Below, piece by piece: positions 1 through 61,723 of a DNA stretch of 64,000 nucleotides. Both the position numbers and the translations under genes were made by a program. Position 1 is the stretch's first letter. Each line of letters starts with the position of its first letter. Source of the stretch: Fomitopsis serialis (taxonomy: Eukaryota; Basidiomycota; Agaricomycetes; Polyporales; Fomitopsidaceae); the NCBI RefSeq assembly GCF_022376445.1, contig NW_025954975.1:248001-312000 (forward strand), written 5' to 3'. The notes below the pieces were generated by a model that saw only the letters and a list, made by a program, of their open reading frames with translations, was not told where the DNA came from and ran no database searches.

Positions 1-172
1 TCGCGTCCAGCCTGCGAAGCAAGTGTTCCAAGCCGTTCATGCGAGCGAGCACTGGCGGTACGTCTCGCCGCCCGGCCTCTTCCCTCCTCGAGTGACATGC
101 TGCTTCCGTCGACGCATTGCCCTCACCCTGCTCGTCGACGAGACCGTTCCCCGCGCCACGGGGATGAGCGAG

Positions 173-218
173 GTGAGTGCTGTCGCGGTGTTTCTGGTGC
201 TGATGTTCTGTCGTTCAG
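173..218 (+). other. Conserved 46-bp intron-like element in the backbone
   Basis: A GTGAGT donor, a GCTGAT branch-like site and a TTCAG acceptor enclose 46 bp. The same element is at 13,042-13,087 and, with point changes that keep donor, branch (GCTAAT) and acceptor (TTTAG), at 44,392-44,437 in the diverged third unit. Another plus-strand candidate intron (GTCAGT...CCGCAG, about 64 bp) lies upstream at roughly 12,323 and again at about 43,683. Preservation in the diverged unit suggests real splicing of a plus-strand transcript, but I find no convincing open frame across the flanking exons. Confidence 0.4.
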
Positions 219-2677
219 TGAGCCGGAGGGTGTGGTGGGACGGCTCGGGGAGGATGCGAGGCGGGAGCTATGGTTCATCGGGAGGATCGCGGGTGCAGAG
301 GGCGTGACACCACGGTGGGAACACGCCGCGCGGCGACGGACGTACGTCGACGTCGGCGCAATGTCTGCGTGCACGACTGACTGTGCACGGAAGAGTCCCC
401 GCTGCGCAGACGACGGTTGCCGTGACGGGCGACTGGCACGTCGTGCGTGTTGCTCGAAGTAGGTACGGAGTCCGTGTATGTAGTCTCGAGGAATAGATAT
501 ATATCTGTTACTCTACATGGTGGGCACGGACCGCGAGCGACGGTCAGAGCCGTCGCAGCGTCCCCCTGTGGTATCCCTGCGAGTTGGCCAGGTCAAAAAG
601 CACGCCACCTCCGTCCGTGGTGTGTACGCGCAGAGCTACGTCTACAGTTCTCGGGGCCCGGGCAGTGACGCCTTCGATTACCACCGCCTCTCCGCCGTCG
701 GCTACATGAGCATCTTGTCGAGGTACCGAACACGTTCGTTCTGCGGACGTCGGCGAGTGTACGTGAGCAGTCTCGTCTCGGAGGGCCCGCCGAACGACAG
801 CGAGGCGACTGAACGGATTGCGCACCTGCGCACCGCGAACGCTTCTGACCGAGTGGTGCGACACGCCTGCTCGACGGTCACACCGCATCGCATCGTCGGA
901 CAAGTCGGAGATGCCACTCACTTGACGGTATCCCACCAGCTGCATCTCGTCGGGGCCTGGGCGACGCGGGGCGAAAAAGCTTGCTGCCAAAGGACTCGAG
1001 CTAGAGCTCATGACGGCCAGTCGATCGCTTGAGCTCCGCCGGAGAGAGAAACGCGACTCACCGAGACGAGCCTGGAGAGCTTTGAAATCCAGGAGCGGAA
1101 TGGCGAGTGCGACATCGCTGTTACTCGGTTGCCGACCCAAACGGCTTCGACATCGGGTCCTTTTCACTGAGCGAATGGATCCCGCGGTGGACGTGGCAAG
1201 CAATTGGACCATGGCGACAGAGCCATCGAGGACCATAGATAAGACTTACTGAAGCACAAAACGGGAAAGGGCGGGAGCAACTGGTGCGAGTGTCAAGCGA
1301 TGTATATGTCGGCGTTCGCGCATTCTCCGCACTACCTGTGCTGGAGACGATGGGTCGATGAGATCAAGCCCGCTCGACGCCGAGCTACCGGTCTCATCCG
1401 TTCTGCGAGTATCGATGACAGCTGGGCCTACGACCATTCGAGAATTAGCGGGACCATGAAACAAGCCCCGTGTCCCGCGACTCGCGACCAAATGGACTAC
1501 GCACCTATACACCACACGTCCGGCCCTCACACCATACGAGCTGCATCTCTTGCGGAAGGCTGTGGAGTCTGCCCTGAGTTGTCGGTGGCATCGAGTTGCA
1601 TCGTCAGGAGGTGCCGGCGTTTGCTCACGAAACACTGCGCATTACGCCGGTCGAGTTTGCGGAGGCGGGATAGCTAAGTCACCGCTGTTCAGTGTTCAGT
1701 CTTTCGAGCTTTGAGCACGGATAAGCGACGCCGTCAAACACGAGCCCTTCATTGTGCGAGATGGTGCGGTGGAGTACACAGGCCATTAGACGGCCCATGC
1801 GTCGTGACTCGGATGACAGGACTTAACGAGGACAGTAGTAGAGGCACAGTAGCGCAGGAACAGAGTGAGAGAACATACGAGCAGGCTGGGAGCGGCCGGG
1901 TAGTATATACATATCTTCGAGCAGTCTATTCAGACATGTATATGTTGATGTTCTGCGTTCTGCGTACTATCCTCGTTCAAGCCGAGGGATTGTTCAAACA
2001 CGAGTTGCCGACGTCAAGCCGTACGGCCAGCTTGCGTCAGGAGCGGACCAGTGCAATGTACGGCACTTACTGAGGGTCATTGCGAGCCTATTGGACGAAG
2101 GCATGCACGCCGAGGGTCAGCAGTTACTGCGGAGCCTGACGGCGAATACGAGCCTTCCCGTGAGCGTACAGAGGTCCGCGTCGACGCAATACTCACCTCT
2201 GTAAACCAGGACTGTAGACAGTTCGCTGTCTCGGCTGTGAATACTCGACCACACGCGACTCTGCTCTCGCGTGTTCTCGAGTTGCTGCGGCTGCTCTACT
2301 GCATCCTCGAACGACAGGCAGCGCACATGTTCCGGCACGGAACGACTGACCGGTATCATCACGCTCGTAGGCGGAACCAGATTGCAAGAAATAAGTACCG
2401 TTAAAAGGTGTCGCGGACACGGCGGAGGAGGCGCTGCGGGACAGTAAGTAGACTCATCCTCTTTCCATGCTCAAGTCTCTGCAGCGTATGCGTCAGGGGC
2501 TTCATTCCCAGCGTATGTACACCGCATCGTAGATGTACGGCTCGGTCTCGGGGAGTGCGATTCAGCTTCGCTGCGCATCTGCCGTGTAACCCAACGACTC
2601 GGACAACATGGGGGAGGGCGGAAAGCTCGACTGGCAGCTATGCACCGTGATTCAATGCTCGCACCGCGAGCCGGTCG

Positions 2678-2837
2678 TCACAGGCGCAGCGTCAGGGACC
2701 CTGCACGAGGGCTAGACAATGCGTCGGTAGTCGGCTGCTCGCCGACGTCATCTTCTATGCAGCCCGTCACGTCTTCGAGCTGAACGCCTTCGCGCAGATC
2801 AGTGATTTCACAGGCACCCAACAGGGAATTGGACGAT
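2678..2837 (-). other. Candidate coding exon retained in all three backbone units
   Basis: Read on the minus strand after a TATTCAG acceptor, this 160-nt block gives a hydrophilic peptide containing CEITDLREGVQLEDVTGC and ends in a stop. The copy at 15,564-15,723 encodes the same. The diverged copy at 47,000-47,162 keeps the frame and the stop; its only indel is exactly 3 nt (one added Ser), with several synonymous third-position changes among the substitutions. That pattern favours past coding constraint. The complementary frame (containing LLADVIFYAARHVFELNAF) is also open in both forms, so the strand is not certain. No family recognised. Confidence 0.35.
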
Positions 2838-5078
2838 CTGAATACCGTCCAAGCAAACGCGGACCGGGTTGTCCGGACCAGTCATTGACCCGTGCGTCGT
2901 CGCCGTATCGACACGAGGCTGAGAAGGAAGTGAGCGTACCTTGGTCTGGTCTGCATCTTCTGCGCTCTCTGACGGTTGACGGGAAGCAGGGAGGGCGGCC
3001 GAGATGCGGCCATGCAGACAACGCCGCAATGCTTCGCATTGTCTACTGCGCAGTTGCCAACGCAGAATATGCTTCGAGCAGCCACGCAATTCCACGATGT
3101 ACGTCTCGTTGCGCGCAGGATGCAATGAATCTGCTCGCCGGGATAGCAAGCCTTGCTGTTGCAGCAGCAAGTACATACCTGCAAGCGTCGTGCATTGTCA
3201 TTCGCGTGCCTGCATGCAATACGCCGCGGTAGCGGGATCGCGCGTGGGTCCTCGATGCGCGCAGGCAATAGTGTGCCCGACCAGAGATAGAAATCGGGTG
3301 ACAGCCGATGTGACGCCGCGCATATCTCGTATGAGAGTGTCATCCCCGCAAAATGGATCGTTATTGTCCTCGTTGACATTGCTCGAGGATGTGATCGCGC
3401 GGGCGCACGTATGTCAGGAGCTGGACCGGCAATGCGATCGGTCCTAGCTGGTACATTCGCGCCAAGCAACCACCTTTGGTCATACTATCCGCGACACGGA
3501 AGACGGTGGGATGCCCGTCTGCCGCGGTCTGCCAACACCCGGATCAACATGCAGAACGCACGAAGAACGCATGACGGCACGTATGCATTGCAGCCGATCG
3601 TATGCGCGTACACCACAGACAGTAGAATGGTGCCCGACGTCCCGCCAGGGAAGCTCGGGCTACTCGCTGCAGCATTCCTCAGCATTCTTTCTCAAATCAC
3701 AGCCATAAACCAGGCACGAAAATCCCGGTTTCGTCCTCAAGAGATCGTGACACATGTCACGGGCAAAGGATATCCTTTTCAGACAGAAGTACACACGCAG
3801 ACTCACCAAAGCTATCTCATTTCCCGCCAATCATCTCCTCACGCCGCGCGCCCCGTCCGAGCCACTCGATCGTAGCTCGTTTGACAGGATCTGTCGAGTT
3901 CATGGCTAGCCGGTGTTTGGTAGAACACGGAGTTCAAGTTGAGTATTGACGAGAACGTGGATTGCCTGCCCCGACTCGGCGCGTGTGGTTGCGAGCATGC
4001 CTGAACAGTAGCACGCCATAGGCAGTTAATAGCTCAAGCCGACGAAAGCGCGGCGAGTGTTTGACGCAGAGGAATCGCGTGGAGACCGTGCAGAGACAGT
4101 TGGAGATAGCTGGTAGTAGCCGACGCCGTTCGTAGTGACATGCACGCAGATGGAGTGGGCCGACAGGGATTGATTGTCAGCCAAGAAGATAGGCCCTAGT
4201 CATCGGAGTGCAAACGCATATATGCCGCATCAAGACAAAGGAATCATTTCGGCGAGCGGGCAGGTGAATGGATGGGAGGAGGAGAGCTGTGGCTGAAGCG
4301 CTGAAGCTTGATGTCGGGTCCTGGACGCGTCACGACTCGTGCGCGTGACCGTGCCAGATGGAAAGAACTTGATTAGGTACCTCAACTGCATACGCTCCGT
4401 TTCTTTGACAGAACCTCGGATGCCTGTCAGACAGCTTGGTTATCGAAGCCGCGCGCGACACAGGTCGTACTGACGTCATGAATAGAACATTTTGTGTCGA
4501 CAGCGCCTTGACAAACTACACATGAAATGCGCGGCCGTGCGCATTTCCGGGCAGTCTTCGTAGCATATGTTCGCTCGTAAAGCTCGCCGCAAACGACTCG
4601 TAGCGATCCGAGTCGTAGCTCCCACCCAAGCTTACGGGTTCCGGATTACCATATCGGGGATACTACCTCCCGCGTCTTGCTTCCACGAGCTCATCGGCCG
4701 CTTGTGACAAGGCAATCTGTGACGGAATAACAGTGAGTAATCCATTTCCTCACTCCGTGACTAGTAAGGATGTGGGCCTACTATGTGAGTATTACTGATC
4801 ATTGAGTTCCGAGTCTGTCATGGACAGTCATGGAAGATTGCTGTATCAGGTAAGTATGAATTGCATGCCATAGTCCAGCTCGGTCGATGTTCGAGCATCA
4901 TTCATGTTGCTGAGCCATTGGTCTGCCAGTTAGTATCAGCTCATGCACTTGGCAATTCTGTTTTCACTTTGAGATTCATTGTGACTCGTGAGCCACTCTG
5001 AAAATGAGTAGTATACCGGAGAAAGTGAGGTCAAGATCAGAATCGCAGCATGAGCATTGTCACACAGTGTTCATGGGA

Positions 5079-5387
5079 CACTGCGGACAACCCGGATTGT
5101 GCGAGGCGCTTACATAGGCCTAACATTGCAAGGGCGTGTATATTAGTAAGCCATCAAGTGAACTTCCCTAACATGGGAAGTACATTCCTAGAACATGGCA
5201 CGATTTCGGAACATAGGAAGAACATAACACTTACATTCCCGATTCTAGGAACATTCAAAATGTTAGGCCGAACAAAGGAATCCCATTCTCTATGTTAGGA
5301 GCTCCGACTTAGAGCCGTAAAAATATACACGCCCTTACAATGTAAGTACCATGTGAGCGCTTCGCACAACGCGGTTTGTCCGCAGTG
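5079..5387. mobile_element. 309-bp MITE with CACTGCGG termini, present only in unit A
   Basis: Both ends read CACTGCGGACAA inward, and the inverted repeat continues imperfectly for about 37 bp and again internally (an AAGGGCGTGTATATT arm pairs with AATATACACGCCCTT). It is flanked by a GGA direct repeat (5,076-5,078 and 5,388-5,390). Units B and C have a single GGA at the empty site (near 17,975 and 49,420). The 3-bp duplication and CACT- termini fit a non-autonomous CACTA/CMC-type element (family inference). It has no coding capacity and inserted after units A and B separated. Confidence 0.9.
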
Positions 5388-6970
5388 GGAAGCACGATAG
5401 ACTGACGTGAGACAGGCGCCGGGCACATCGGAGGAGATGAGTGGCGGATTTGATGTGCATTTGTGGCGCTGTTGAGGCGAGCATCAGCCCGGTGAGTGCA
5501 AATATGGTGTGAGCTGTTCTGACACGAGTCTGGCACTTGATATGCATGAGCCGAGCACCAGCAACATAAAGGTCAGTGGGCAGATGGGCGAGACACACTA
5601 CTCTTGACCGTCACTATGCCTCACCCTCCTCCACCGTCGGCGCAGCCTTATCACTGTTCCCCGATCGCGCCGATCTACTGCCCGCTCCTACGTTCAATGT
5701 TTGGTGGTGTGGGCCTATGTACAGTCAGTCATTGTCGTTGTGTCTGTATTCATACTCACTGTTTGTGATCTTCTGACAGCAGCTATGTACTGAAACCTCA
5801 CATCGAGAACGAAGCTCCGCGAGCCACACCCGTCCAACTGTAAGTGGCTTCCCGATATAGTAGTAGTGACTTCGTCTCAGCCTATCACAGCAATGTCGCT
5901 CGTCTGTCTCGTACGCAAGTGAGGCTTGACATGACCAAGACCCAGTCCGACTTATCAGGGCACAGGCCAGGCTCCTGGCTTGAAGCCGGGAAGCTCATTA
6001 GTACGTCCGTCGCTATGTAGTAAGCAGAGAGGTGTCATGACTGTTGTACTAATGACGGGCTAGATAGGTTGGCCAGGTATCCTCGAGTATCCACAGCCCA
6101 GGCGAGCTCACCTCCGCGCCCACACGAATGCGTAGACAGAGGCGCCGACATGTCATCATGGATCTGCGATCATTTGGACAGACGGTTCGACAGGTACGTT
6201 GGTCGCATTGTATGGATTATCTACGAATCATTGACTGGTGCGGCTAGATGGGCATGCACCGTGTCAAAATACGAAGCTCGCGCATCGACTGTGCTTTCCG
6301 GAAGACACCGTCGTATTGTAGGTCGCATGCCATAGTCTTCATTTCGAGTGTACTGATCCTCCGCACTCAGTTCCATATATACTTGACCGATGAACGTGCA
6401 TAATCAATGATATTGTATGTGATAACCTGAACCGAACGTGCACTGTCAGTCGCGAAGCTCGCCTGGTTCTGGCGCCACCAGCGCGCATGCAGAGACCCAG
6501 GTATCTGATTGGGATATACTTACCGAGTTTACTATCTGAGGCATTCGTTTATTTTGCCGCATCGACCCATGCGAGCCGTGGCCGATGCAGGTGTAAGTAT
6601 TATGCGACTCACAGTAACACTGGTGAAGTGCAGCTGCCCGAGTCGCGCCGTGATCCGTCACGGTACAAGATGGAGTACGGCAGCGACTGCCTCTGCACGT
6701 CACACCGTCACGGAGATTTGCAAGATGACGGGTCGAAGGGCCATTAGTACGTCGTCCCTTCCTATGTTCTTCTGCGCTTTGCGAGCGCGATGGCTCCCTG
6801 CTGCCGGGTATTACGATGGGACATAAGGTGAGCAATGACAATACATGCTTACCTTCCTCATTCTGATCTGCGACGGCAGCCACTCTGGTCGACGCAATGC
6901 ATATCGACTGCTCGTACGTCGCCGCTACTGCAACACCCCCATATCCGGCCCGGTTCGGCCGTGCAAGGCA

Positions 6971-8050
6971 ATGTATATATAGATCGTCTTCCCGCGAGCG
7001 GCGCGTCTGCGACGGTGCGTAGACAGCGAGATGCACATGTGCCGACGCCGACTGACACCGGACTGAGCAGGGTTGCTGCCCACGTCCGCCAATCTGTCTG
7101 CCAGTCAACAGAGAGCAGCGCGTCAGCGCTGGTCAGGCTATGTGATTGCATCGGTGTCTACAAAGTTCGTGAGCGTAGGTCAGGGTATCAAGACCTTCGT
7201 ACCTTTGCAGCCTTCGGCCCATCAACGCTAAGGGTATCCGTACTGACCTATACTGTTCGTGAGACCCGGCATGGCAAAGTAGGTATGTATCGGCGTCCGG
7301 CGAGCGGCTTCTCGGGCCATGTGCAAGGTGCGTCATTAATTCGACGCTGGTGCTGGCCGGGTGGTTGACATTACAACAGGTTGGCGGCGCCGAGTTCGTG
7401 AGTATCGATGAGCAACAAGTCCTTCGTACCTATGGAGGCTTCGAGCTCAAGACCAATGCATGGTAGTATGACCACTCACCAACACTGTTCACGACGTCGG
7501 GAACGGCAAAGTAGGTATATATCGACGTCCGGCGAGCGACGTCTGGGTCGTCTGCGAGGTGCGTTTTGAGGTAGGTGCCTGCCGTCCGTGTCCGAGCCCG
7601 AGCCCGGGCACGCAGCGCCGCGCGAGCGCTGCTCCGTAGGCTCGTTGGGCAGTGGACCAAGTCAAGTCGTGAGCGTGAACGTCGATGTATATATAGATCG
7701 ACGCCCGGCGACCGACGTCCCGCGCCATGTCCTCCTAGGTGCGTCAGTGATCTAGCGGGACGTGTGCTTACTTTGTACCGGGAACAGCAATGTCTATATG
7801 TATCGACGCCCGGCGAGCGACTTCCTGGGCCGTACACGAGGTAAGTTATCCAGTCAGCCCTGCAGTGAAGTGCCCTCTTGGCTGACGTGAGACTGTGTTG
7901 CACGGGCCCCTCGTCATAGTCTTCCGCGCAAGCGCAGCCACTCTGCTGTTGCTGTGTACGACGGTCCAAGTCGGCGGCGCGTCCGAGTCTCGTCACGAAC
8001 GACGATGTGTATATGGATCGCCGTCCGGCGAGTCGTATTAGATGTAAGCT
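6971..8050. repeat. Array of six ~58-bp cassettes (unit A)
   Basis: The core ATGTATATATAGATCGACG followed by TCCGGCGAGCGAC recurs at about 6,971, 7,283, 7,514, 7,685, 7,790 and 8,004, irregularly spaced by 105-310 bp. Most copies run into a donor-like AGGTGCGT or AGGTAAGT. On the plus strand several copies translate to similar peptides (YIDRRPAS, MYRRPASDF). On the minus strand CACTGAC...CCTAG branch/acceptor-like strings sit next to cassettes. The cassettes may be duplicated exons or a dispersed regulatory repeat; the sequence does not decide between these. Confidence 0.7.
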
Positions 8051-8546
8051 CATGTCCTGGGTCACTCGCACTGACTACGCCGGCGCGACAGTCTTCCTCG
8101 GCACAGGGAGTCCATGCCGCACGACTTCTGGCCTTCGTTCACGACCCACGTTCGCGGGCCGATACGTGGTGAGTTACGTCGTCTGTGCATTCGCATCGCG
8201 TGTTCGCTGACGTTGCGTCGGCAGAGTGTCGCAAGCGCGTCATCGTGCGGTGCCGACTTGCTGGGCTGTAAGCCGTGTCTCGCCGTCGCGTGAGTCTTCC
8301 CCGCCTTGAGTACGTCGTTTGTGTTCGCTGACTATCTGCGAGGGCGAGCTCGTCGCAGACTCTGGGCACGACGTCACCATGTACTCGGGGTAAGTGAATG
8401 TATTGACTCTGTATGTACACGCGGCGACGGACGTACGACGAGGGACAGACGTACCTGGGTAGGGGGAAGGGGCTACGTGTTGCAGTGCGCGAGGGAGAGA
8501 AGGGGGGGCTTCTTTTTTTTTTTTGTGTTCATCAGCATGTACATAC

Positions 8547-8700
8547 CGGGCCCCGTTTTGCGCGATGGACGAAAAGTTTTGACCACCGATAACGCGCGAG
8601 CTCCCTGCGGGGAGGCGAATCCATGCCCGAAAAAAGTACGTTTTTGGACTTGGGCAAATCGTCGCGTTTTGCGCTCCAGCCAATCCCTGCGCCCACACGT
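8547..8700 (-). promoter_or_regulatory. Inward-facing promoter and first exon at the right end of the backbone
   Basis: Reading leftward from the backbone terminus, an ATTGGCTG (CCAAT-type) box at 8,677-8,684 is followed about 50 bp later by an ATG at 8,624. It opens a 26-codon exon beginning MDSPPRRELARYRWSKLFVH. The exon ends at a GTATGT donor, and a 92-bp intron with CTGAT, a long T/C tract and CCCAG follows. The block is nearly unchanged in unit B and in unit C (59,510-59,760), where the surrounding sequence is far more diverged. The protein beyond exon 1 could not be followed. Promoter function is inferred. Confidence 0.4.
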
Positions 8701-8776
8701 AAAACCCCCACGCCCGCCGTGCGACGATCCCCGCCCCGCGCCCACGCCGCACTCGCACGCCTTCGTACTGGCTGGC

Positions 8777-9842
8777 AAGAACCGGCGCATCATGGTTTCT
8801 GAGCGCCTGGATGCTGGGCATGCGGTTCAGCTTGTGCACCATCGGGGACGACGGCGCGGGCGAGGACTCCATGGCGGCCTCCTGCTCGAGTATGTGGTGG
8901 GCGAGACGCGCCGACCCGCGCATCGGCGAAGACGAACGACGCTTCTTGGGGAGGGGCAGGGAAGGGCTCTCAACAGGCGTCCCGGGGGAGGTGTCACCCG
9001 GCGCCGCGAAGCCATTGAAGTCGCATGCGCGCACCTGCGCAAAGTAATCCTCGAACGTACTAATTGTCGGCGCAGCGGACGTCGGGACCGCGAGCGGGTT
9101 GTTGTTGACGTCGAATGCGGTGATCGTCGGCACGGCGGAGAGCGGACCATCGCTGGGCACCGACGACGACGGAACGTAGACAAATGAAGAGTCGACGTCC
9201 ATCGCGTCGGATGCCGCGGGGGACGACGGAATGTTCTGAGGCTGGCAGGGAGCCAAGCGTCAGCTACTCCATACGTTGCGATCGAGCCTGAGCGCGAGTG
9301 GCTCACTGGCCCGAAACTGAACAACTCACCTCTGGCGCGACGTTCGCGTCCTGACCACCCGTCGCCATCCATTCGAACGGCAGAGCAGCTCGTTGGAGCC
9401 GTTTGCTCGCCCCGTTCGTCCCAGTCGACTTGGCGACAGACTGCAGACTCGTTACCGAACCGTTCCCGCCCGAGTTGTTGCTCATGTCCCGACCGAAGAG
9501 CCTCGCGTTGCTCGTCATGGCGCGCGGGCGACCCATGAAGGGACGTTGTTTGTCGACGCGCGTCGGGGGCGCGGGCGAAATGTCCATAGGCGCGTAGTCC
9601 GGATGATTGTCGCGCTCGCTTTCCGGCGCAAGGTCGAGCGTGTCGCGAGGCGGCGAGTTGAGCGACATGGTCGACGCGAAAGAGAGCTCGAGGTCGTCCG
9701 CCTCAGACGAGAGGAAGTCGTCCATTTCGACGCGTGCTGCCGGCTTCATCAGCCTCTCGCTCGCCTTGCGAGACGGCGCGGGGGGTACGTCGAGGAAGGG
9801 TTTGTTCGTGGCCGAGGGGTTTGAAAAGCCGAAGAATGACAT
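8777..9842 (-). pseudogene. 5' fragment of a Cdc25-type M-phase inducer phosphatase gene, copy 1
   Basis: Exon 1 (ATG at 9,842, 171 codons) starts MSFFGFSNPS and contains DDFLSSEADDLELSFAS, SLNSPP, MDISPAPP, ARLFGRDMSN and KRLQRAALPFEW, the order seen in the regulatory N-terminus of basidiomycete Cdc25 proteins as I remember them. After an 88-bp intron, exon 2 has DAMDVDSSF, PTITAFDVNN and KKRRSSSPMRGS. It then breaks off at the backbone junction near 8,776. The C-terminal rhodanese-like catalytic domain with HCxxxxxR is absent. The frame stays open for about 180 further codons of backbone, so a chimeric protein is conceivable. The full gene probably lies left of the window. Confidence 0.7.
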
Positions 9843-10853
9843 GTTTTCGATGCCAAAACGGAATCCAATGCGTTTCTTGTTTTTGATCGTATACGGTGCT
9901 GCTAACTCTGTTCGGCGGGAAGGCTTCAGTATGCTTGGTATGCGCATGGCGGAGAGATTAAGGATACAACGGCTAGCGATACACAGTGGATGGTACAACG
10001 GACGACCGGAGGGTGGTCACCGGATGATGGTGGCGAGTGGGGAGGAAGCAAGACGGAACAGGATACGAACCAAACAGTGTGGCCCCGGACAGAGGTCGTG
10101 GCCCGGATGAATCGTTGGTTTAAGTATAGCCGGCTAAGGGTTAAGCAAGGTCAGCGAATATGAGCGAAAATGGACATGGACCGAAACACTGGAAATGTAA
10201 GTGATCGAACGGCGGTGCATTGTGCATTGTCCTGGCCGCGAAGCCTGGTTGGCTGGGCGAGGCTCCCAATCCGGTTGGCCATCAGCAGCGACCGCAGTCT
10301 AGCGACCACGACCTAGACCGATATGGACGAGATAGTGGCATGCGGACGCTTTGGGCTGGAAACGAAGCGGGAAGAGGGGCGACTTGCCTTGTACGGTGAA
10401 TGAATGTGTGTACGGAGGAGGCCGCGCCTGTCAGGGAAGAAAAGGGGTGGTAAGGGACCTGCTGGCACTCAGAAGGGTAGAGCAGCTAGCCAAGGAGTCC
10501 TTACGCGAAACGAACCAACGAAATAGGGAATCGGCGCAAACGACTTTGTGTACGTCTGTGGGTCCACACCGGGTGCGCAAATAAGCGTCTCGCGGTCACT
10601 CCGAGCAGCGCTGGCTGTACTCACGAATGAACGGGGTATGGGGCGTCGCCGGAATGTACAGACCTGGATGTGCTGTCGCGCGTGTCGCAGTACAGATAGT
10701 AAAGAGCTAGCAACCCCCCTTGCCGCTTCCTCTCTTATTTGCGCCTTGTTTGGCCTATGTTCGTTTTGGACGCGTCTCTCACGTGGCCGCGACGCGCGCG
10801 AGTTCATCATCTTCTCGTGCATCTCCCGCGGCGCGCGCCCGTCCCTGCCACCA
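8777..10853. repeat. Host cdc25 segment, left copy of a ~2.1 kb direct duplication
   Basis: This 2.1 kb of promoter plus N-terminal coding sequence occurs again at 21,367-23,455. The two copies flank backbone B, and beyond the right copy the sequence continues as unique host DNA. The copies differ by small indels, for example a 2-nt deletion in the coding part of the right copy and a short ATACTTA-containing insertion near 23,370 in its upstream region. The breakpoints match those of the carboxypeptidase segment at the other locus: the coding interior joins the GGCTGGC end of the backbone, and the upstream region joins its left end. The 900-bp upstream part shows no gene. Confidence 0.85.
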
Positions 10854-10970
10854 GTCTGCCATCGTCGCAGGCAGCGTGGAGCTGCGCCTTGCTTCTGCCC
10901 GTCCCTGGCTGCTCCTGACGCAGCTCGATGCCCGCTCCGTCCGCGCTTTGTGCACTCGCCGACGCATCCC

Positions 10971-17200: not shown

Positions 17201-17287
17201 CGGGTCCTGGACGCGTCACGACTCGTGCGCGTGACCGTGCCAGATGGAAAAGAACTTGATTAGGTACCTCAACTGCATACGCTCCGT

Positions 17288-49941: not shown

Positions 49942-52900
49942 CATCAGGAAAACTACATGTTGCTTCAGCCGCCTTAGGCGGCTTTCCGTGGCTTTGCATC
50001 CGTCTTAGCTGACTGACCTGTCTTAGGGTACTTAGCTCCGGACAGCCACTAGGATGGCTGAGGAGCAGCTAAGCGCATCAAGCCGCGCAAAGCCAAATAA
50101 GTGTTAGTGTAAGTAGATACTATGACAAAGTATCCTAAGCTATCCTAAGCAGTTTCCTCGCGAACATCGACCTGGAGTGCCCGGACCCTGACCGTCGAAG
50201 CCGTATAGCAAGCTCATGACAACGCCGGTACGCTGCAGCCACTTCCGCTCGCCGGACGCAATGAACTGGTCGATGATGCACTGCGCGTTTTGCAAAGCCA
50301 CCGAACTGCGCCCCCAGATGGTCAGTGTGTCGGGCAAGACGAACAAGTAACCCAGCTCGAAGCCGAGCGTGCCAAACTCGGAGAGCAATGAGCTGCAGAT
50401 GACGAAGCGCGCCTGGCCGGACCCCAGCGCGTTCAGTGGGACGTACTGCTGCTCGTTCTCCTGGTCGAGGATGACGGCGTGGCGCTGCGAGGGTACCGCG
50501 CTCGACGTCTTGGCCGGACGTACGTTTACCTTCTCGAGGGCGAGAGCCCCGAAGGCAGGGCCTCAGTGGTTGCCCAGTTGCTGTTCTGCCCCTCCTCCAC
50601 AGTCTTCCCTCGGTGTTCAGGATACGTGTGGGGTTGCGTTGAGGCGTGAATCCTTCAAGATAGGTGGATATGGCCTTCCCGATGCGCTTCAAGGTCTCCT
50701 CCGTCGAGCCGGTGGTCCGCGCGGGGAGCGTCTTCTCTGCCAGTTCCTTTGGGGACGGGAAGATGCGGAGTGCCGCTTTTGCTCGTCGGAACGTAGTCCT
50801 TTGCGCCACTCGCCGCCTTCTCTATCGTGCCCCAGACCCACTTCTTGCGGTCCTCCACGTCATTCTCGGTGAACGTCTCGCGCTCGACCAGGTACTTGGA
50901 GTACTGGGTAGCGGTGTGGGCTACCTCTCGATGGCCTTGTACATGCGCGGCTGCGTGAAGCTGGGCTGGTCCGACTTGTTGGTGGCCGTGGCGACGGTAG
51001 CAGACGATGTCGATGACGATGTCCTTCTTCCACTTCGCGCGCGAGTCGGCCGTAAGTTGGCGGACGAAGTTGACCGCCTCGACGTTGTCGCCGTTGACGT
51101 GGAAGATGGGCGCGTCAGTGGCCTTCGCGATGTCGGACAGGTGCCGCGTCAAACGAGCGAACCGCGGGTGGGTCGTGAAACCGATGTGGTTGTTCACGAT
51201 GAGATGGATAGTTCCACTCGTGCCGTAGTGGGGAAGGTTGTAGAAGCCAGGCAGGTGGACGAGCGAGGTGGGCGAGCGAGCGGGCTGGCGGACGGGCTGG
51301 TGAGAAGGACGAGAAGACGGGCGAGCATCGCACTCACCTGTACTAGCCCTGTCGGAGCCCACCTCCCCCAACTCTGTGTTGCGCTCGCTTCCCTGTCGCG
51401 TTTTGCGTGTGCTTCGACGCTACTTACCGCAGTGTTGAGTTGACGTCGAGTCGTCGACGTGGAGGCTGCAGCTCGCGAGAACTCGGAGAAGTGCTAAGCG
51501 CCTCGGGTACGAGACATCACGTGCCCTTGCTCTGACTCGTTGAGTCGCTAAGTCCCTCTCCCTGGGAGTCCCTTCGCGTTCGCCGCCCATCAGCCCTCTT
51601 TCCTGCCCACGCTCGCCTGTCCGCAGCCCATCTCCAGGAAACTCAGGCGGGCGCATCCACAAGAGATGTGGCGGGTCCATCTGCCTGCTGCGCCCAAAAA
51701 TTGCGCGGCCCACGAAGGTAACGACTCCGAGCTCCAGGGACGCGTCATCGCTGGACTCGGAGGCTCGTGAAGGATATCAAGGCAAACTGGAGGCCGTAGC
51801 CGGCGAGGATACAAGCACCTCAGGTGAGAGTGCCCGCACTTGTCTGGCTTCCTCTATCGCCACTTTCTTGTCCTGTTCCCGCTCAACTTCTCCTCTACGT
51901 CTGCGCTGGCGACGTTGATGCATCCACGTCGTCTCATTCGTCGTGTCTACGCCCTCCTGGCTGCACGAATCGTCCTCATTCCATGCCACTCTCGCGCTCT
52001 TCGAAGGCTGCTCAGGGTGATCCGGGACGCACTGTCCGCCAGAATACAACTCTGCCGTGGTCTCGCTACACATACTCTCGCCGATATTGCGTACACGTAG
52101 CTGGGTCTGGGGCTGGTCAATTGGGATTGAGGTGTCGGTGAGACTACTATCCTAGTATGCCGTATTGGACCGTGCAGGTTCGAAGCTGACGATCACCCCC
52201 TGCTCACCGCACCCATCGCCGGGTGATCCGCAGATGCTCGCCCAAGTGGATGAGGTCTGCTCGCCCAAGTGTATCTCCCCACTGGATGTATTTTGGAATG
52301 GCAAGTCGCGAACTGAAGATGTACATGGGTGCAATCAAGGACAAAGGTGAGTACGAAGCAGGCTGAAATGACACCCCAGGAGACGCAAGAAAACAGAAGG
52401 CAAATGATGCGGACGATGCCAATACACAGCACCCACGTGTAGCCGAGACACGCGCAATGCAGCGCCGGGCGACACGGTCGTTGAACGCGGCGGGACGACG
52501 AGGGCCAATGCGCCGCACGCTGATACGACAAGCCCAGGTCCTGCGGGGCCCAACCCAATGAGTATCGCAGCGCCGAAGGAGCGTGCGTCAGGCCTCCGCT
52601 GAAAGAACTGCCTGGTGAGTTGTGATTTTAGTCGACGTCCGCTCATGTTCGCTGACTCGGACTAGCAAAAGTCCTTTCGTAGATCAGCCCGCCGCCACAT
52701 TCAATATGGGTCGATCCTGGACAGTGGCCTGACCGGCCTGTTACATCATCGCATCGTGTGCCGCAGTGCAGCACAACTCGACGGTACTGATGCACAATGT
52801 ACGGATCCTATTTCTACCCAGTAGTGTCAGTTTCGGCCGAGCGCGCGAAGTTGGAATGAGCGTCCAGCCGAGCAGCGAGCAGTTTCGCCTGCTGCCAATT

Positions 52901-53304
52901 TTATCTGCGACTGTCATCATCTCGCGTCCCCGTCGTCGTTGGAGGGATCGATGCTCGCTGCTCGCCTCTCTTCCACCCGTCTGCAGACTGCCCGTTCCCT
53001 GTACTGTTGTAGATCCTGTATTTACCATTTCCGAATCAATGCTATCATGTATTCGCTGTGTCTATGCAGAACCCGTTAGCCAGCAGTGTGCGCTTAAGCG
53101 ATGTTTAATTGGACTTATATACCTCCTAAAATGAACTTGGGTGGGGCTTATAGATCGCTTTGGCATGCTTGATTAAGCAGACCCGACTTGAAATAAGCAA
53201 CTGGACCTTCTTACTTAAGCCGCCTCGGCTTACTGGCTTCGCTGGCTTAATGGCTTAATTAAGCCGCTTAAGCCGCCGTAAAGCCACATGTACTTTTCCT
53301 GATG
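49942..53304. mobile_element. 3.36 kb TIR transposon 1, non-autonomous, carries an OGDH fragment
   Basis: The ends read CATCAGGAAAA(C/G)TACATGT inward from both sides, about 24 bp. The flanking dinucleotide AT (49,940-49,941 and 53,305-53,306) is single at the empty site in units A and B (ACAGCAATGTCG near 5,890), so the target duplication is 2 bp. The subterminal 150-250 bp at each end are dense in GGCTTA/CTTAAGCC strings, possible transposase-binding sites. No transposase is visible. The interior holds a decayed 2-oxoglutarate dehydrogenase fragment and about 1.8 kb of sequence I cannot place. Confidence 0.85.
50140..51262 (-). pseudogene. Captured fragment of 2-oxoglutarate dehydrogenase E1
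   Basis: OGDH E1 is the thiamine-diphosphate subunit of the TCA-cycle 2-oxoglutarate dehydrogenase complex. In three successive minus-strand frames one reads GTIHLIVNNHIGFTTHPRFA, DAPIFHVNGDNVEAVNFV and KDIVIDIVCYRRHGHQQ, then KELAEKTLPARTTGSTEETL and RIGKAISTYLEGFTP, then NAQCIIDQFIASGERKWLQR. This is an internal part of the protein with both termini absent and at least two frameshifts. It lies wholly inside transposon 1, so it is a captured gene piece and not a resident gene. In functional E1 proteins the HVNGDNVEAV and YRRxGHNE stretches are highly conserved; here GHNE has become GHQQ. Confidence 0.9.
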
Positions 53305-54907
53305 ATGTCACTTGTCTGCTGGAACCTATCGGACTGTCTCGTACGCAAGTGAGGCTTCACATCAGGACCCAGTCCGACTCATCAGGGCACAGGTCAGGCT
53401 CCTAGCTTGAAGCCGGGAGGCTCATCAGTATGTCCGTCACTATGTAAGCACGGAGGTATCGTGACTGTAAGTGCATCGACTGACAGCTTCAAGTTGACTC
53501 GACGACGTACTAATGACGGACTACTAGTAGTAGACAGGCAGCGGCATATTGGGCCAGGTATCCTCGAGTATTCACAGCCCAGGCGAGCCACCTCCGCTGC
53601 CCGCATCTACACAAATGCGTGGACAGATGCACCGACATGTCATCATGGATCTGCGATCATTTGAATAGATGGTCTGGAAGGTACGTTGTAGTCGCATTGG
53701 ATGAATTATCTACAAATCATTGACTGGTTGCGGCTAGATGGGCATGCGCCGTGTGAAATTAGGATGCTCGCGGTTTGACTGTGCTTTCCCGAAGACACGG
53801 TCGTATTGTAGGTAGCATGCGATGGTCTTGATTTCGAGTGTACTGATCTTCTGCCCTTAGTTACATTTACTTGACCGATGAACGTGCATCATCAATGGCA
53901 TTGTATGTAATAACATAAACCAAAGGTGCACCCCAGTCGCGAAGCTTGCCTGATCCCGGTGCCACGAGCGCGCCCAGGTATCTGGTTGGGATATGGCGAG
54001 TTTGCCATCTGGGGCATTCATTTATCTTGCCGCCCTGACCCCGTCCGAGCTGTGGCCGACGCAGATGTAAGTACTATGCGACTCACACTAACTTGAATGC
54101 TGCATGAGTGCAGTCGCGGCGTGATCCGTAGAAGATGAGGTACGGCAGCACATCAGGAAAACCCTCTTTGAGCAATAACAACGAATGTTGTATTATTACC
54201 GCGAAAGACGAGTAATTGTAGCCATTCGTATGTTCGCTGTAGTAGCAGTATATTCGCTATGGTCGAGAACTCAAATACGAATAACACGATATTGCGAAGA
54301 ATGCAGCGGTGTTCGGGCCAGGGTTCTACACTATTATATGGATCATTCCCTTTATTCCCTTATTGTTCGCAGTACATTCAGCACACAGACACATAGGTAT
54401 CAGAAAACGTGGAATGCATTACAATGTACTGTTGGCAATCCAAGACAATACAGCCAGTACTACTACTACTACTACTCGTCGGCGAGCTACTTCTAATGTA
54501 TAATACCTGTGAACCACTCGGGATCGGTACCTATCCATCGTATGACTCCAGCCAACACTTGATGTATGGGCAAGAGAAAGCACGGGCGTGTGAGCTAGCG
54601 GATGGCCGAGCAGAAGCACGAGCGAGCGCGAGCGGGTGAGTGTACAACTCAATCAGGTAGACAAGTGGGCGGGCGAGAGAGAGCGTGGGCGAGAGATGGG
54701 TGGGCGAAAGGGAGCAGAGGTCAAATTGGGCATGGGCAAGAGGCGGCGCAGGCGGGAGGCAGTGCAGGCGAAAGGCTCAACTCGCCGCGAGGCCTTGCCC
54801 ATCCAGCTCAGTGTACCGCTTCGACCAGTGAGTCCCGTACGCAAAGTCTTCCTCCTCGAAGTCTTGCTGGTGAATGTGTTTGACCGACCTATGCAAGCCA
54901 GGCTGAG

Positions 54908-55640
54908 ACGCCTAAGGAGCGTCGTCTGAGCCCGCGTGCGCATCGGCCGAGTCGTCCGGGAAGGCCCGTTGACCCTGAACACCGCTAGGGTGACCCCGGT
55001 CATCTTCATCTTCATCTTCGTCGAGAGACAGATGAGAGGAAACGCGCGGACGAGCATGGCCGTGCTCGCTATTGTTCGAGCCCAGTGAGCGGAGGTTGTT
55101 GTATCTGTCGCTGTTCGCAGAGTGCGATTCCAGGACGTTGCCGCCGCCAGCAGCGCCGGATGTAACTGTATGCGCGTGGTTCACGTTCAGGTCGTCTCCA
55201 GAGCCCGTGGTCTGCAGTTAAGACGGGACAGGCAGCATCAGTGGGCGAGATCTGTTCACAGACAAGAACTCGGACCCGTACCAGTACCAGAGAGGGTGCC
55301 TCCGAGGAAGAACGGCGAAGACGGACGAGGGCCCGACAGACGGTGAGCCTGACTCGGAGGCAGGAAGGGCTTGGTCAAGCGAGCGTCAGCTTCAGAGCTA
55401 TCAAAGGACTTGCGGTTCGCACCCAGTCCGGAGACACATTTAGCTGAGAGACGGGTTTGCGCTTTGCGAGGCCGGATACTACATTGAACAGCTTGTTTGT
55501 CGCGGCTTTCAGAGCAGCTTCGACACTGTGATGGGTGGGTATACGCGCGTCTTTCGGGGCGAACGTGTCACTGTATGAGTGCGGAAGGGCTGAGTGCTTC
55601 CGGAGAGCAGCCCGTTCGGGCGCAACGAAGGAGTCGAGGT
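54908..55640 (-). pseudogene. Unidentified captured coding fragment inside transposon 2
   Basis: Two minus-strand open stretches look like real protein. The upstream one contains SYSDTFAPKDARIPTHHSVE and AALKAATNKLFNVVSGLAKR. The downstream one contains VLESHSANSDRYNNLRSLGS and an acidic SLDEDEDEDDRGHPSG run. They are separated by a GC-rich stretch with intron-like ends. I do not recognise the parent gene. Position inside the inverted repeats suggests capture from a host gene, as in transposon 1. The open frames upstream of it are compositional. Confidence 0.4.
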
Positions 55641-55739
55641 TTCGGGGCGAGCACTGGCGGGCAGGCAGGCGAGCAGGCAGGCAGACGAGAGCGGGCACGG
55701 AGGCGAGAGAGGGCGGGCGGGCGAGAACTCGAAGCCGCC

Positions 55740-55811
55740 AGAGGACGCATGCGCAAGAACAACAGGTCGGCAGAGGACGCATGCGCAAGAACGACAGGTC
55801 GGCAGAGGAAC
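55740..55811. repeat. 32-bp tandem duplication inside transposon 2
   Basis: Two adjacent copies (55,740-55,771 and 55,772-55,803, one mismatch) of a unit containing GAGGACGCATGCGCAAGAAC, plus a partial third. Farther right a looser motif (GACCGCGAGC followed by GGGCCAATGCCC-like sequence) recurs about four times between 56,100 and 56,700. This is typical repeat-rich filler of a non-autonomous element. Confidence 0.7.
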
Positions 55812-57437
55812 GAGCTGGCAGGAGGATGAGCGTGCGGGCGAGCAAGGCGCCGACGTGGCGATGTGAACATGTGACTCGATGCAGATCTCATTCAGGGCAG
55901 ACATACCTGCCCTTACGCCGCATCTGAATTTGCCGTCTCTTGACTGTCCGTCGCTCCCAGTAAGTTACCGCCCTCCTACCACCCGCCCGACACCCTTCTG
56001 CAATAGTGCGCGGAATTGGGCGTGCACACCACGAGCACATCGACAGCTCGAATCACAACACGGACCGTGGTCAACAACTGAGCGACAGCGATGACGACGA
56101 GCGTGCAGGGCCCATACTCTGCGTGCAGACATCGCCGATGGAGTCGGATGGACGGACGGTGGACACACGAGTAAAGGGCAGACAATGTCTCGGGCTTAGG
56201 TGAGTGCATATGCAGGCGGATGGGTACGCTAACAGTGAACGCAGTATGCAGTGAGGTGTAGCAGTCTGCTGCACGACGCGTACGGCGACCGCGAGCACGC
56301 GGGGCCAATGCCCTGCATGCAAACGCGGCCGACGAACGAGCTGCCGGGCGGACAAGTGAGCTGACTACCCGGGCGGACGAGCAAGCAGCTGGTGCCAGTA
56401 CACACGCGCCGACCACGAGGACGCCGGGCGAATGCCCAGTACACCAATATGGCTGATGAACACCCAGCCAAACAGGCGGGCGAGCGGGCACACAGGCGGG
56501 CGATGACGTGCGCGGCGACCGCGAGCAGTGTGCAGGACTACTGCCCAGCACACAAGCTCAGCCTACGAACGACCCGCGCGTGCTTGAGCAAGGGACGGCA
56601 GATGGCGGCGACGTTGAGCAGGGCCGTGGCGTGCGCCAGCGCAACTCGCAGACTCGGACCGCGAGCGCGCAGGGCCAGTGCCCGGCTTGCACACGAAGCC
56701 GACGAGCGCGCCGTAGGTACGGGCGCAGTAGCGAGTAGTTGGGAGGGCGTACGGATGCGTGCATGGAGAGCGGGGATGCGCGAGCATGAGCGGGGAGGAT
56801 GGGGAGGATGACAGGTGCAGGTCATAGACCCAAACTCGCGTCCACTCACTCGCTCTCTGCTCATCTGCCCTTAGTGCTCGTCTGCTTGCTCACTGTGAGA
56901 TGTCAGGTAGCCCGAAGTATATAGTAGTCTGGATTCACGGTACATAGCATCACTTGTTATTATGATATTGGTTTGACAACTCGGAAGCAACCTGAATTAC
57001 TACCGTGTGCATAATCAAAGTAGGACATTGTCCGATATTACTTGTAATGGACCAAACACGACGCGGAAGTCTCACAATTCGTGACGTTCTCTGTATTAGT
57101 GGGATTTTCAATGTGTTATCACGAATTCCGGAAAGAGGGTTTTCCTGATGCAACTGCCTCTGCACGTCACAGCGTCACGGAGATTTTCAAGATGACAGGT
57201 CGAAGGGCCATGAGTACATCATCCCTTCCTATGTTCTTCTGCGCTTTGCGAGCACGATAGCTCCCTGCCGCCGGGTATCACGACGAGACATGAGGTGAGC
57301 AATGACAATATATGCTCACCTTCCTCATTCTGATCTGCGACGGCAGACACTCCGGTCGATGCAATGTATATCGACTGCTCGTACGTCTCCGCTGCTGCTG
57401 CACGCCCAGATCCGGCCTGGCTCGGCCGTGCGAGGCA

Positions 57438-59000
57438 ATGTATGTATAGATCGTCTTCCCGCGAGCGGGGTGTCTGCAACGGTGCGTAGACAGCCAGTTG
57501 CACATGTGCCGACGCCTACTGACACCGCACTGAGCAGGAGGGTCGCTGCCCACATCCGCGAATCTGTCTGCCGGTCAACAGGGAGCAGCGTGTCAGCACT
57601 GCTCAGGCTATGTGATCGATACTGCTAACCTTCTCGGATTTCACAGGCACTCGTGAGTGCCGCTGACCGCCTGGCCTGTCAGGCAATGTATATACCGACC
57701 AACTCCCAGCGAACGGCGCGTACGTGCTCCTCGTGCTCATGATTGAACACATGAGCAACTTACCTTGACGGATTCGCCATCGGCGTGAAGCGCGTTCAGT
57801 AGCATGCGTCGGTGTCTACAAAGTTCGTGAGTGTAGGTCAGGGCAACAAGTCCTTCGTACCTTTGCAGCCTTTGGTCCATCAATGGTAGGGTATGCGTAC
57901 TCGCCTATACTGTTCGTGAGACCCGGAACGGCAAAGTAGGTATGTATCGGCGACCGGCTTCTCGGGCCATGTGCCAGGTGCGCTGTCGATCCGACACTGG
58001 TATTGTCCGTATGGCTGACGTGACGTGCCTGTGCTCAATAGGTCCGTGTCTATCAATGTCAGGGCAACAGGTACCTTGTACCTTGGAAGGCTCGAGCTCT
58101 CACCTAGGCCCGGAACATCAAAGTGTGTATGTATCGACGTCCGGCGAGCAGTGTCTTGAACCATGTGCAAGGTACGTCTTCAGTTGCTGCCGTCCATATG
58201 GCTGACGTGACGTGCGCAACAGGCCATACGTGTCCTTGTCTGCGTATGTACGAGCCCGGGCACGCAGCGCGCGAGCGCTGCTCCGTAGGCTCGTTGGGTG
58301 GATCAAGTGAAGTCATGGGCATGAACGTTGATGTATATATAGATCGACTCCCGGCGACCGACGTCCCGCGCCATGTCCGGGTCCTAGGTGCGTCAGTGAT
58401 CTACCGGCACGCATGCTTACTTTGTACCCGGAACAGCAATATCTATATGTATCGACGTCCGGCGAGCGACTTCTCGCGCGATGTCCTAGGTGCGTCGCTG
58501 TCATTGATCTAGTCATCCACATGCTTACCTTGGATGCAGAAGAACAATGTATGGATATATCGACGTCCCGCGAGCAACCCCGGGCCCCTGGGCCGTGTCC
58601 GAGGTACGTCGATGATCCACTGATACTCTGTCTTGGAGACTGACCCGATGCCATAATCGATAGGCCCGCCCATCCGGCTTGCTCGTCGGAGTGCGCAGCG
58701 CGTCGGCGCTGCATCCTGGCTATCGTCGCGACCACCGAGTTCCTCGCCTAAGATCGCATGCTGCGCGATGTCGATGTATCGACGTCCGGCGAGCAACTTC
58801 CTGGGCCGTACACGAGGTATGTCATCCAGTCAGCCCTGAGGCTTCAAGCTTCGTGGCTGATGTGAGACTGTGTTGCACGGGCCCTCGTACACAGTCTTCC
58901 GCGCAAGCGCAGCCACTCTGCTGTTGCTGTTAACGACGGTCCAAGTCGGCGGCCCGTCTCGTCACGAACGACGATGTGTATATGGATCTCCGTCCGGCGA
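57438..59000. repeat. Array of nine ~58-bp cassettes (unit C, expanded)
   Basis: Cassette cores occur at about 57,438, 57,686, 57,940, 58,124, 58,331, 58,440, 58,547, 58,773 and 58,974, nine against six in units A and B. Several keep the core TCGACGTCCGGCGAGCGAC and the downstream GAGGTACGT/TAGGTGCGT donor-like end even though the spacers have diverged strongly. The plus-strand peptides again read alike (YRRPASDF, YIDRLPATDV). Change in copy number by whole cassettes suggests unequal exchange or exon-like duplication. Confidence 0.7.
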
Positions 59001-59771
59001 GTCAATGACCTCCTAGACGTAAGCTCATCTCCTGGATCACTCACACTGCATCACTCACACTGACTACACGGGGGCGACATCTCATACTCAGGTCTTCCTC
59101 GGCACAGGGAGTCCATTCCGCACGACAGCGTTGACTCTGGCCCTCGTTCGCGACCCACATTCGCGTGCTCATACGTGGTGAGTTGTGTCGTCTGTGCATT
59201 CGCATTGCGTGTTCGCTGATGACTTGCGCCGATGGAGTGTCGCAAGCATGCGGTGCCGACTTGCTGGCCATAAGACGTGTCTCGCCGTCGCGTGAGTCTT
59301 CCCCACCTTGAGTACGTTGTTTGTGTTCGCTGACTATCTGCGAGGGCGAGCTCGTCGCAGACTCTGGGCACGACGTCACCATGTACTCGGGGTAAGTGAT
59401 TGTATTGACTCTGTATGTACACGCGGCGACGGACGTTCGACGAGGGACAGACGCACCTGTGTAGGGGGAGGGGCCATGCGTTGCAGCGCGCGAGGCAGAG
59501 AGAGGGGGCTTCTTTTTTTTTGTTCGTCAACATGTACATACCGGGCCCCGTTTTGCGCGATGGACGAAAAGTTTTGACCACCCATAACACGCGAGCTCCC
59601 TGCGGGGAGGCGAATCCATGCCCGAAAAAAGTACGTTTTTGGACTTGGGAAAATCGTCGTGTTTTGCCCTCCAGCCAATCCCTGCGCCCACACGTAAAAC
59701 ACCCACGCCCGCCGTGCGACGATCCCCGCCCCGCCCCCACGCCGCACTCGCACGCCCGCTTACAGGCTGGC

Positions 59772-61582
59772 GTCTTCGCCTCGCCGGCCACGTCCTCGCC
59801 GACATCCCACCCCCTCCATGCCTCTGCCGTCCACGCCTCCGCGCCTTCCCACTCGAGCTTGTCGACCCACATCCGGTTCGCGACCCAGTTGCACTGCCAG
59901 TCATACGTGCCCGCATAGATCAGCATCCGTACACCGCGCGCGAGTAGGCCCGCGACGTGGTACTGAGACGGTACAGCCCACTTGTCCAGATGCGCGCGGA
60001 AGCCCGCCCCGACCGCGCTGCTACATGCGGTGAAGTTATATGCAGAGGAGACGCCAAGGAGGGCGCGAATGGAGGGATCATCAAGGAAGGACTTGATGAC
60101 GGCATTTTCGGCATAACAAAGGCTTGTGCCTTCGCAGGGCTACGAGGGGTGACATGCGTGAGAAGTGTGATGAGTTCATATGGATGACACGCACCTTCGA
60201 GATGTCGTACGGGTTGCGTCCTGCATGTGAAGACCAATATCACTTCCCTGCCAGATTTCTCGCGTGTCAGACTCACCACTAGCCCAGTAACCCGTACTCA
60301 GCTCGGAGTCGCAGAAGTTCACAGCGGCGTTGCAGTCAATAGCGTCGAATTGGTCGATACAATTGGCGTACATCGCTTTCTGGCAACGCGGTAGCTAGCG
60401 CGATACAATAGATAATCATTGCTACAGCTTCTACATGCTGTAGAAAGGACGTACCGCCATCTTCATCCGCACGCAGGTGCTGATCTTCTGGAAGGGTGCA
60501 GCTAGGGCTGCTGTGCCGCACTCTATTTCATATCGTCCAGGATATAATCTTGGATGTGTCCTTCACCACATACTCTGCATTAGTTCGTATAGGGAGTGCG
60601 TACGTTGAGATATCCGTGATGCCATTGCCAATGATCACGCTCTGTAGATTGATTGTCTCGCGTCCCTCTGCCTGCGCGATACGGTTCTGGTCATAGATGT
60701 AACTCGCAAACGCGGGGAGATATCGTCCACCGTATGACTCGCCAGCGAGATGCAGAGGGCGTCCAGCAAACTCGGTGAACGTCTGGAAGAAGATGGTGAT
60801 GAAGGCATGCACGTTCCGAGCGGTGTCCTCAGTGGTCTCGATCGTCTCGCCGTAATCTGCGTACGAGAAGCCGACGCCGACCCTAAGCGATTAACCTCGT
60901 CAGCATGTGTGCAAGATTGCAATATAAACGGCCTACGGTTGGTCGAGGAAGAATATGTTAGCTTCCGCGTTCCACGAGTACGGGTTCCAAATCGTTCGAT
61001 TATGGGAGGTGCCTGTCATATCGATTTTGCAAGGCCCTATATCCCGGTCATAACCAGTTGCATATTCCTCGCCGCAGAATGAACTGACCTAGCTCCATGA
61101 GGAGGCCCATGGACGAAGAACAGCCCGGTCCACCGTTAATCCACATCATGACATCGTCTGGTCGCGATTCTGTATCAGTGAGAGTTCAACAGCCATCGAG
61201 ATTACTTGGACCTGTTTCTGGCTCCCTCCTGCTCTCAAAGAAGTAAAAGAACAGGTGCTTCGCGCCATGATCGACGTCCAAATAGCCGGTGTATACGCTG
61301 CCACCATTGGTTAGCCTCATGCTCAACCAGCGGTCAAACAAATCGGATGTCGTACTTCACAGTAGGGTCGCAAAATTCGGTTTTCTTGACGCGCACTGCG
61401 TAGCCCGGCAAGCTTGCATGGGCGAGCTCTTTGAACGTATCCTTTGATCCGAGGGCTGACAGTCGCAAGCTTGATTCAAAGTCACTAATCCCGACCGTTA
61501 TCTGCTCCTTGACCTGAGCGTGAACACCAGCCAGAAAGACACTGGCAGCACAGAAAGCTGTTGTCCATAGCTGCAACAACAT
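59772..61582 (-). pseudogene. Serine carboxypeptidase (S10), copy truncated at the backbone junction
   Basis: Near-identical to exons 1 to 9 of the complete gene, with intact splice sites, oxyanion loop, catalytic Ser ([10 protein letters not shown]) and Asp (YAGTYDW). It breaks off shortly after [12 protein letters not shown]. The catalytic histidine exon segment and the last exon are missing. The frame runs on for about 240 codons into backbone C (KTPACKRACECGVGAGRG), so any product would be a catalytically dead chimera. It retains the native upstream region to the right. The signal peptide is [19 protein letters not shown]; the copy differs from the complete one at a few residues (AQV for AL, for example). 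Confidence 0.9.
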
Positions 61583-61723
61583 GTTGTTCGAGAGCGGCGT
61601 ATCTCGGTGTACAGTTCGCCAGGCCTAGGGGGATTCAAGGTCGCTCACACGCGAACTTCTTTCAAGTTGTCGCGGGACGCGGGCGCGACGGCGCGCCGCT
61701 TATCACGTGGGTCGCGTTGTGCC
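59772..61723. repeat. Host carboxypeptidase segment, right copy of the direct duplication
   Basis: Second copy of 39,954-41,910 at a constant offset of 19,818 bp over nearly all its length, indicating a recent event. To its left is the GGCTGGC end of backbone C, to its right unique host DNA beginning CGAGCGGAGATTC. Confidence 0.9.

Follow-up and report, generated by a model that had tools for sequence, protein, structure and literature searches.

The 64,000-nucleotide stretch of Fomitopsis serialis DNA described here, C57:248001-312000 (hereafter the window; C-numbers denote contigs), carries units A, B and C, which are mutually homologous and without recognisable genes. One protein encoded in the window matches a Fomitopsis serialis protein at 100% identity. 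At all four loci for which both native flanks were read, such units are bracketed by direct repeats of a locus-specific host segment. The explanation that we favour, at a little better than an even chance, is that a unit and a locus-specific host segment of 2-4 kb form a joint module, and that this module enters an unoccupied allele by homologous crossover within the segment, most simply as a circle.

According to this explanation, a unit of about 11 kb would already be joined to a 2-4 kb segment of one locus, and the module, as a circle or circular multimer, would cross over inside that segment with an unoccupied allele of the same locus. The product would be a unit between two segments or a tandem array, in which one outer copy of the segment stays continuous with the gene. 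We infer that the entering molecule is circular and that its source is a different haplotype or strain; the direct repeats could recombine with each other and so set the module free again. What is explained is the entry of a ready-joined module, and the origin of the junction between unit and segment lies outside every version of it.

At the cdc25 locus, the order is the gene with segment copy 1, unit A, copy 2, unit B, copy 3 and native upstream DNA (Table 1). Copy 1 lies outside the window at C57:243925-245988, where it is joined to the remainder of the gene, as the dimer integration proposed in an earlier note on this DNA requires. Directly to its left stands a rhodanese domain (Pfam; C57:243026-243223), the catalytic domain that a cdc25 gene should encode. 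Self-BLAST confirmed the kilobase direct duplications that the note had described at cdc25 and at the carboxypeptidase gene, and at both the cut indeed falls inside coding sequence. The cdc25 border lies within a 376-residue frame (C57:243268-244395), from whose protein copy 3 diverges past the border; on the left of unit C, peptidase S10 matches (minus-strand frames only) cover profile positions 10-185 and 259-404 of 420, and one of them spans 39953. The two carboxypeptidase segment copies are 99.2% identical.

Table 1. Coordinates of units, host segments and associated features in the window.
Feature	Position	Strand	Basis or remark
cdc25 segment, copy 2 (middle)	8777..10852	-	self-BLAST; 5' part of gene
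cdc25 segment, copy 3	21367..23446	-	self-BLAST; native upstream DNA on its right
Carboxypeptidase (peptidase S10) segment, left copy	39953..41909	-	self-BLAST, Pfam; runs into remainder of gene on left
Carboxypeptidase segment, right copy	59771..61730	-	truncated at unit; native upstream DNA adjoins
Unit A, right part	1..8776	+	self-BLAST; cut by window start, extends leftward to ~C57:245989
Unit B, complete, 10.5 kb	10853..21366	+	no Pfam match up to 20690
Unit C, 17.9 kb with nested insertions 1 and 2	41910..59770	+	self-BLAST
Conserved left end of unit	10915..11426	+	similar to 41994-42594 of unit C and to sequence on other contigs
Conserved right end of unit	20991..21350	+	matches on 14 contigs reach or approach 21350
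Nested insertion 1 in unit C	49942..53333	.	inverted ends of ~45 bp; E1 dehydrogenase fragment; repeated elsewhere in genome
Nested insertion 2 in unit C	54150..57149	.	sequence repeated on other contigs
Six 57-bp motif copies, unit A	6967..8033	+	motif search
Six 57-bp motif copies, unit B	19556..20622	+	motif search
Eight 57-bp motif copies, unit C	57434..59002	+	motif search

The genome-wide search that the note had proposed covered 66.2 Mb in 806 contigs, an assembly that contains two haplotypes, with the right end, the left end and one middle piece of unit B as queries; it found relatives of the unit on many contigs. Flanking repeats measure 1.96 kb at the carboxypeptidase gene, ~2.0 kb at C135, ~2.1 kb at cdc25 and ~3.78 kb at C114, and the copies without kilobase flanks that would have spoken against the note were found at none of these; C195, C552, C335 and C788 also bear the right terminus, with their flanks unread. 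The repeats on C21 are ~2.9 kb, and the right copy leads into another, more divergent unit; there (C21:98105-102035) the segment is followed by the start of a unit 83% identical to the first and by scattered unit pieces. Native DNA lies beside the C7-type segment on C90 and C559. C559, C419 and C150 were known from search coordinates only, and of C291 the first 4 kb were read. The coding test described below, and nothing else, drew on fragments from C291, C5, C412, C163 and C656; C11, C795 and C667 were left out.

Four identified genes read towards the right terminus, namely cdc25, the carboxypeptidase, an aldo-keto reductase (C21) and a GH85 glycosidase (C135). The claim that the gene faces the same way stands at four of the five loci where a gene could be identified; the exception is C22, where a BAR-domain gene reads in the opposite direction; because of this gene, neither a 5' segment nor a single orientation is universal. 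The idea that a promoter is always captured was dropped, given the reversed gene at C22 and scanned stretches of C114, C7 and C413 that gave no identified gene. We regard a Circo_capsid match at C114, which covers 23 residues and scores 18.7 bits where the cut-off is 36.2, as due to chance.

The copies of each segment can be used to discriminate between modes of origin. A target duplication made from the recipient leaves both copies native, whereas a crossover with an incoming divergent segment leaves reciprocal recombinants; for a single crossover with a circle, the first copy is predicted to be native and then incoming, and the last copy incoming and then native. At cdc25, every one of the 26 sites peculiar to copy 1 (6-318) comes before the 38 peculiar to copy 3 (429-2072), and four are peculiar to copy 2 (one-sided Mann-Whitney p = 7.6e-12). 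At C114, the left copy agrees with the allele at 98 sites and the right copy at 63 (p = 2.4e-22), or at 29 and 63 once the tract at 1710-2200 is removed (p = 5.1e-14). The corresponding counts at C135, where the switch lies near 240, are 18 and 64 (p = 3.4e-5), or 18 and 17 without the tract at 1060-1560 (p = 3.5e-5), and towards the outside of the last copy 9 of 11 sites agree with the allele on C52. On C22, where one native end is in view, copy 1 has 11 private sites at or before 188 plus a 10-base gap, all within the first 190 bases, and one further site separates copy 2.

Outer copies that are reciprocal recombinants of the Campbell type were therefore found at cdc25, at C135 and, with a conversion tract, at C114. 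The switch is common to both copies at cdc25 and roughly so at C135, as predicted if a circle, or a circular multimer, had crossed over once. The mosaic copies at these three loci argue strongly against a duplication copied from the element's own chromosome. The removed tracts, 1710-2200 in the right copy at C114 and 1060-1560 in the last copy at C135, are short and diverge far more strongly than the segment does elsewhere; both belong to the last copy, the one that adjoins the right terminus.

The single-crossover integration of a circle put forward in the earlier note hence gains from cdc25, C135, C114 and the one native end on C22, and several observations weigh against it. The switches at C114 are 1.7 kb apart, and at 35 sites (728-2409) the copies are alike and the allele differs; the separate switches and these shared sites mean that a conversion tract (a repaired gap) must be added. 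At C135, 6 of the 18 copy-1 sites lie past the switch, beyond 500, and at the copy-1 end, where 12 sites can be compared, C52 agrees with the incoming sequence at 9 and with the first copy at only 3; the C52 flank at this end also differs by 5%. Neither the carboxypeptidase copies (7 versus 4 sites, p = 0.46) nor those at C21 show the pattern, seven of the 11 C21 differences lying close to the end where the two copies would be expected to agree, and C90/C7 gives no clear pattern. Moreover, sites within a tract are linked, so that all p-values given above are too small.

Some of these points suit a different history, which we consider rather unlikely, in which the unit was inserted by transposition or repair with a kilobase target duplication, perhaps on another haplotype (for example, by its two ends joining separate sister chromatids), the outer ends of the segment copies were afterwards replaced in crossovers with empty alleles, and unequal crossing-over built the arrays. 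Such a duplication yields an identical layout; the near-identical carboxypeptidase copies suit it, and the separate switch points at C114 suit two independent crossovers. It does not lead one to expect the coincident switches at cdc25 and, roughly, at C135. In the literature searched for kilobase target duplications by that phrase, no fungal transposon with them was recognised, and we know of no transposon of any kind that makes them.

Empty sites with one copy of the segment occur on three allelic contigs, C73 (for C114), C52 (for C135) and C91 (for the carboxypeptidase gene). A stretch of 600 bases across the left junction on C73, comprising flank and segment edge, is 99.83% identical to the surroundings of the left copy on C114, and one of 662 bases across the right junction is 99.85% identical to those of the right copy. 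The C52 flanks differ from C135 at 1 of 682 positions on one side and at 17 of 338 on the other. C91 holds a single, inverted copy of the carboxypeptidase gene with flanks of 93-94% identity; the 10 kb read there contain no unit. A second allele was not found for cdc25, nor for C21 (40 of 49 candidates scored).

These alleles also bear on the suspicion that haplotypes or repeats were misjoined in assembly. The arrays on C90, C413 and C22 do extend to the ends of their contigs, and a part of the window recurs on C774 at 100%. Against this, the copies differ (93 substitutions and 358 gap columns between units A and B), the same architecture occurs with different host segments on several contigs, and the empty alleles connect left and right flanks without a gap; we give an artefact very little credence. 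C774:1-2014, at the start of its contig, matches the region upstream of cdc25 in two pieces with ~370 extra bases between them, and is taken to be either a second haplotype or a duplicate contig.

Tandem arrays of unit plus segment are found at cdc25, C135, C413, C22 and C7, with periods of ~14 kb on C413 (96%) and 12.7 kb on C7 (~99%); on C413, C22 and C7, one outer flank or none is in view. The constant junctions within such arrays would also fit tandem copying of the unit and adjacent host DNA at each locus, by replication-based template switching or rolling-circle re-replication. In maize, alternative transposition of Ac is described in two papers as generating tandem duplications with Ac ends and as causing re-replication (PMC4270019, PMC3744419). 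The likeness is that of duplications arising from transposon-related processes; the maize process needs Ac ends and transposase, and terminal inverted repeats were not found in units B and C. Tandem copying of this kind gives no reason for the incoming segment to diverge from the recipient, nor for recipient sequence to be kept at the outer ends, and we regard this course as quite improbable.

Units A and B are 97.8-98.5% identical, and B and C 74-90% by piece (window self-BLAST). Uninterrupted units span 10.5-11.6 kb (n = 6, without large insertions: B, C413a, C22a, C21, C7a and C7b), in line with the backbone of about 11 kb claimed earlier; that length does not hold for unit C as it stands, which, like C22b, is lengthened by insertions. 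Unit pieces are colinear at ~59-86% identity in 11 compared pairs, the tandem pair C22a/C22b being 100% identical, and the compared units have the same ends, so that there is no circular permutation. The statement that B and C share both termini thus stands for the conserved ends; the right terminus itself ends near 21350, and the GGCTGGC placed there is absent from the other loci shown. CTGG is found near the ends of B and C, and other sequence at the termini on C21, C413, C22 and C7. For terminal inverted repeats, the scores of the ends of B and C were reached by 75 and 297 of 300 shuffles, and for direct similarity between a unit's own ends by 44 and 134 of 300.

No Pfam family was found in unit B, scanned up to 20690, and the absence of recognisable genes asserted in the earlier note is upheld to that extent. 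Nor was any match above cut-off seen in 5 kb each of C21 and C413, where a sub-threshold 2EXR match (expectation value 0.021, 16.4 bits against a cut-off of 24.8) was recorded. A test for synonymous change between unit B and its relatives gave 420 window-frame values, the best with z = 3.45 and the worst -5.50, and no convincing coding constraint; the weak codon-like periodicity at 12.2-13.2 kb of the window may mark a decayed gene. Two open reading frames of the unit had no match at an expectation value of 0.001 or less in a large protein collection, among 8000 candidates scored for each. Neither an Rfam search of the whole window nor a search of viral contigs with two exact patterns gave a match. 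The idea of open frames crossing from host gene into unit was dropped, as several frames are open in GC-rich DNA and the tblastn matches contain stops. Likewise, an E1_dh match was rejected as a gene of the unit, since it lies inside nested insertion 1, which has inverted ends and falls outside the unit proper; that insertion holds fragments similar to the E1 dehydrogenase domain and to the transketolase pyrimidine-binding domain.

All eight of the unit sequences that were examined carry a 57-bp subterminal motif with paired GACGTC sites, in 3-8 copies that share a strand and lie close to the right end. Searched across the genome, its 20-base core gave 42 matches (at most two mismatches) versus none for a reversed control, 39 of them on contigs already known for the family, two on C33 and one on C758. 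The C33 matches, at 59799 and 70338, are 10.5 kb apart and are perhaps a further, more divergent tandem pair. The repeated motif is reminiscent of iterons or of arrays of binding sites.

The family was compared with known mobile DNA. Terminal inverted repeats no better than shuffled sequence at the ends of B and C distinguish these two units from DNA transposons with such repeats. Long terminal repeat (LTR) retrotransposons differ from B and C in that the latter have no terminal repeats of their own, the flanking repeats being host DNA that differs per locus. Starships are large fungal mobile DNA with a captain tyrosine recombinase and short duplications; no captain-type domain was seen in the Pfam-scanned parts of the units, and the duplications are of kilobase length. 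Helitrons capture pieces of host genes and occur in tandem arrays; they insert without target duplication, their 3' end is CTRR after a hairpin, and autonomous copies encode Rep/helicase, which non-autonomous copies lack. The units have kilobase flanking duplications at the four fully read loci, no family-wide CTRR at their ends, and no Rep/helicase domain in the parts scanned (B to 20690 and the stretches of C21 and C413). In the serial translocation at cattle KIT, a circle reportedly carries a host segment and returns homologously to the parent gene; those are reportedly isolated events of host DNA, whereas here a repeat family with conserved ends is involved. Helitrons, fungal ones included, are the subject of a published paper (PMC5148889).

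Wine-yeast region B, a 17-kb Zygosaccharomyces bailii segment amplified at several loci, resembles the family in being fungal and present at multiple loci; the authors who described it deduce that it moves through a circular intermediate, and suggest that homologous recombination lets it integrate in tandem and be released (PMC3053389). As described there, region B contains genes, differs between insertions by circular permutation and is joined to its sites without homology, whereas the units have the same ends, no recognised genes and kilobase host duplications. A description of the present element was not found in the literature searched, with subscription papers mostly outside that search. 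The family, of which part was scanned, may be a non-autonomous relative of a known class.

Several further features were recorded. The carboxypeptidase gene is inverted between haplotypes (C91:10758-13114 versus window 39575-41908), one breakpoint coincides with the segment border used by unit C, and a search of the breakpoints revealed no strong inverted repeats. At C135:155932-158465, a stretch of ~2.5 kb breaks up a unit's right terminus. An insertion inside a host segment copy (C22:114726-121318), with identical 501-bp ends and an open frame of at least 1264 residues, is probably an LTR retrotransposon. A minisatellite with a 24-bp unit lies inside an open frame at 62738-62827 of the window.

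It is tempting to take the favoured explanation one step further, as a tentative proposal to which we give rather less than an even chance. Long-lived, gene-less selfish DNA may use a few kilobases of a host gene as an address, move as an episome between nuclei or strains, and enter empty alleles by the homologous recombination of the host, with no enzyme of its own; new addresses would come from newly picked-up flanking host DNA. If true, this would be a family of mobile DNA that needs neither transposase nor recognition site, in which a piece of host gene provides the specificity and the gene is spared by integration. Selfish DNA would then have a distinct way of spreading through a fungus, and the integrative vectors used in the laboratory would have a counterpart in nature.

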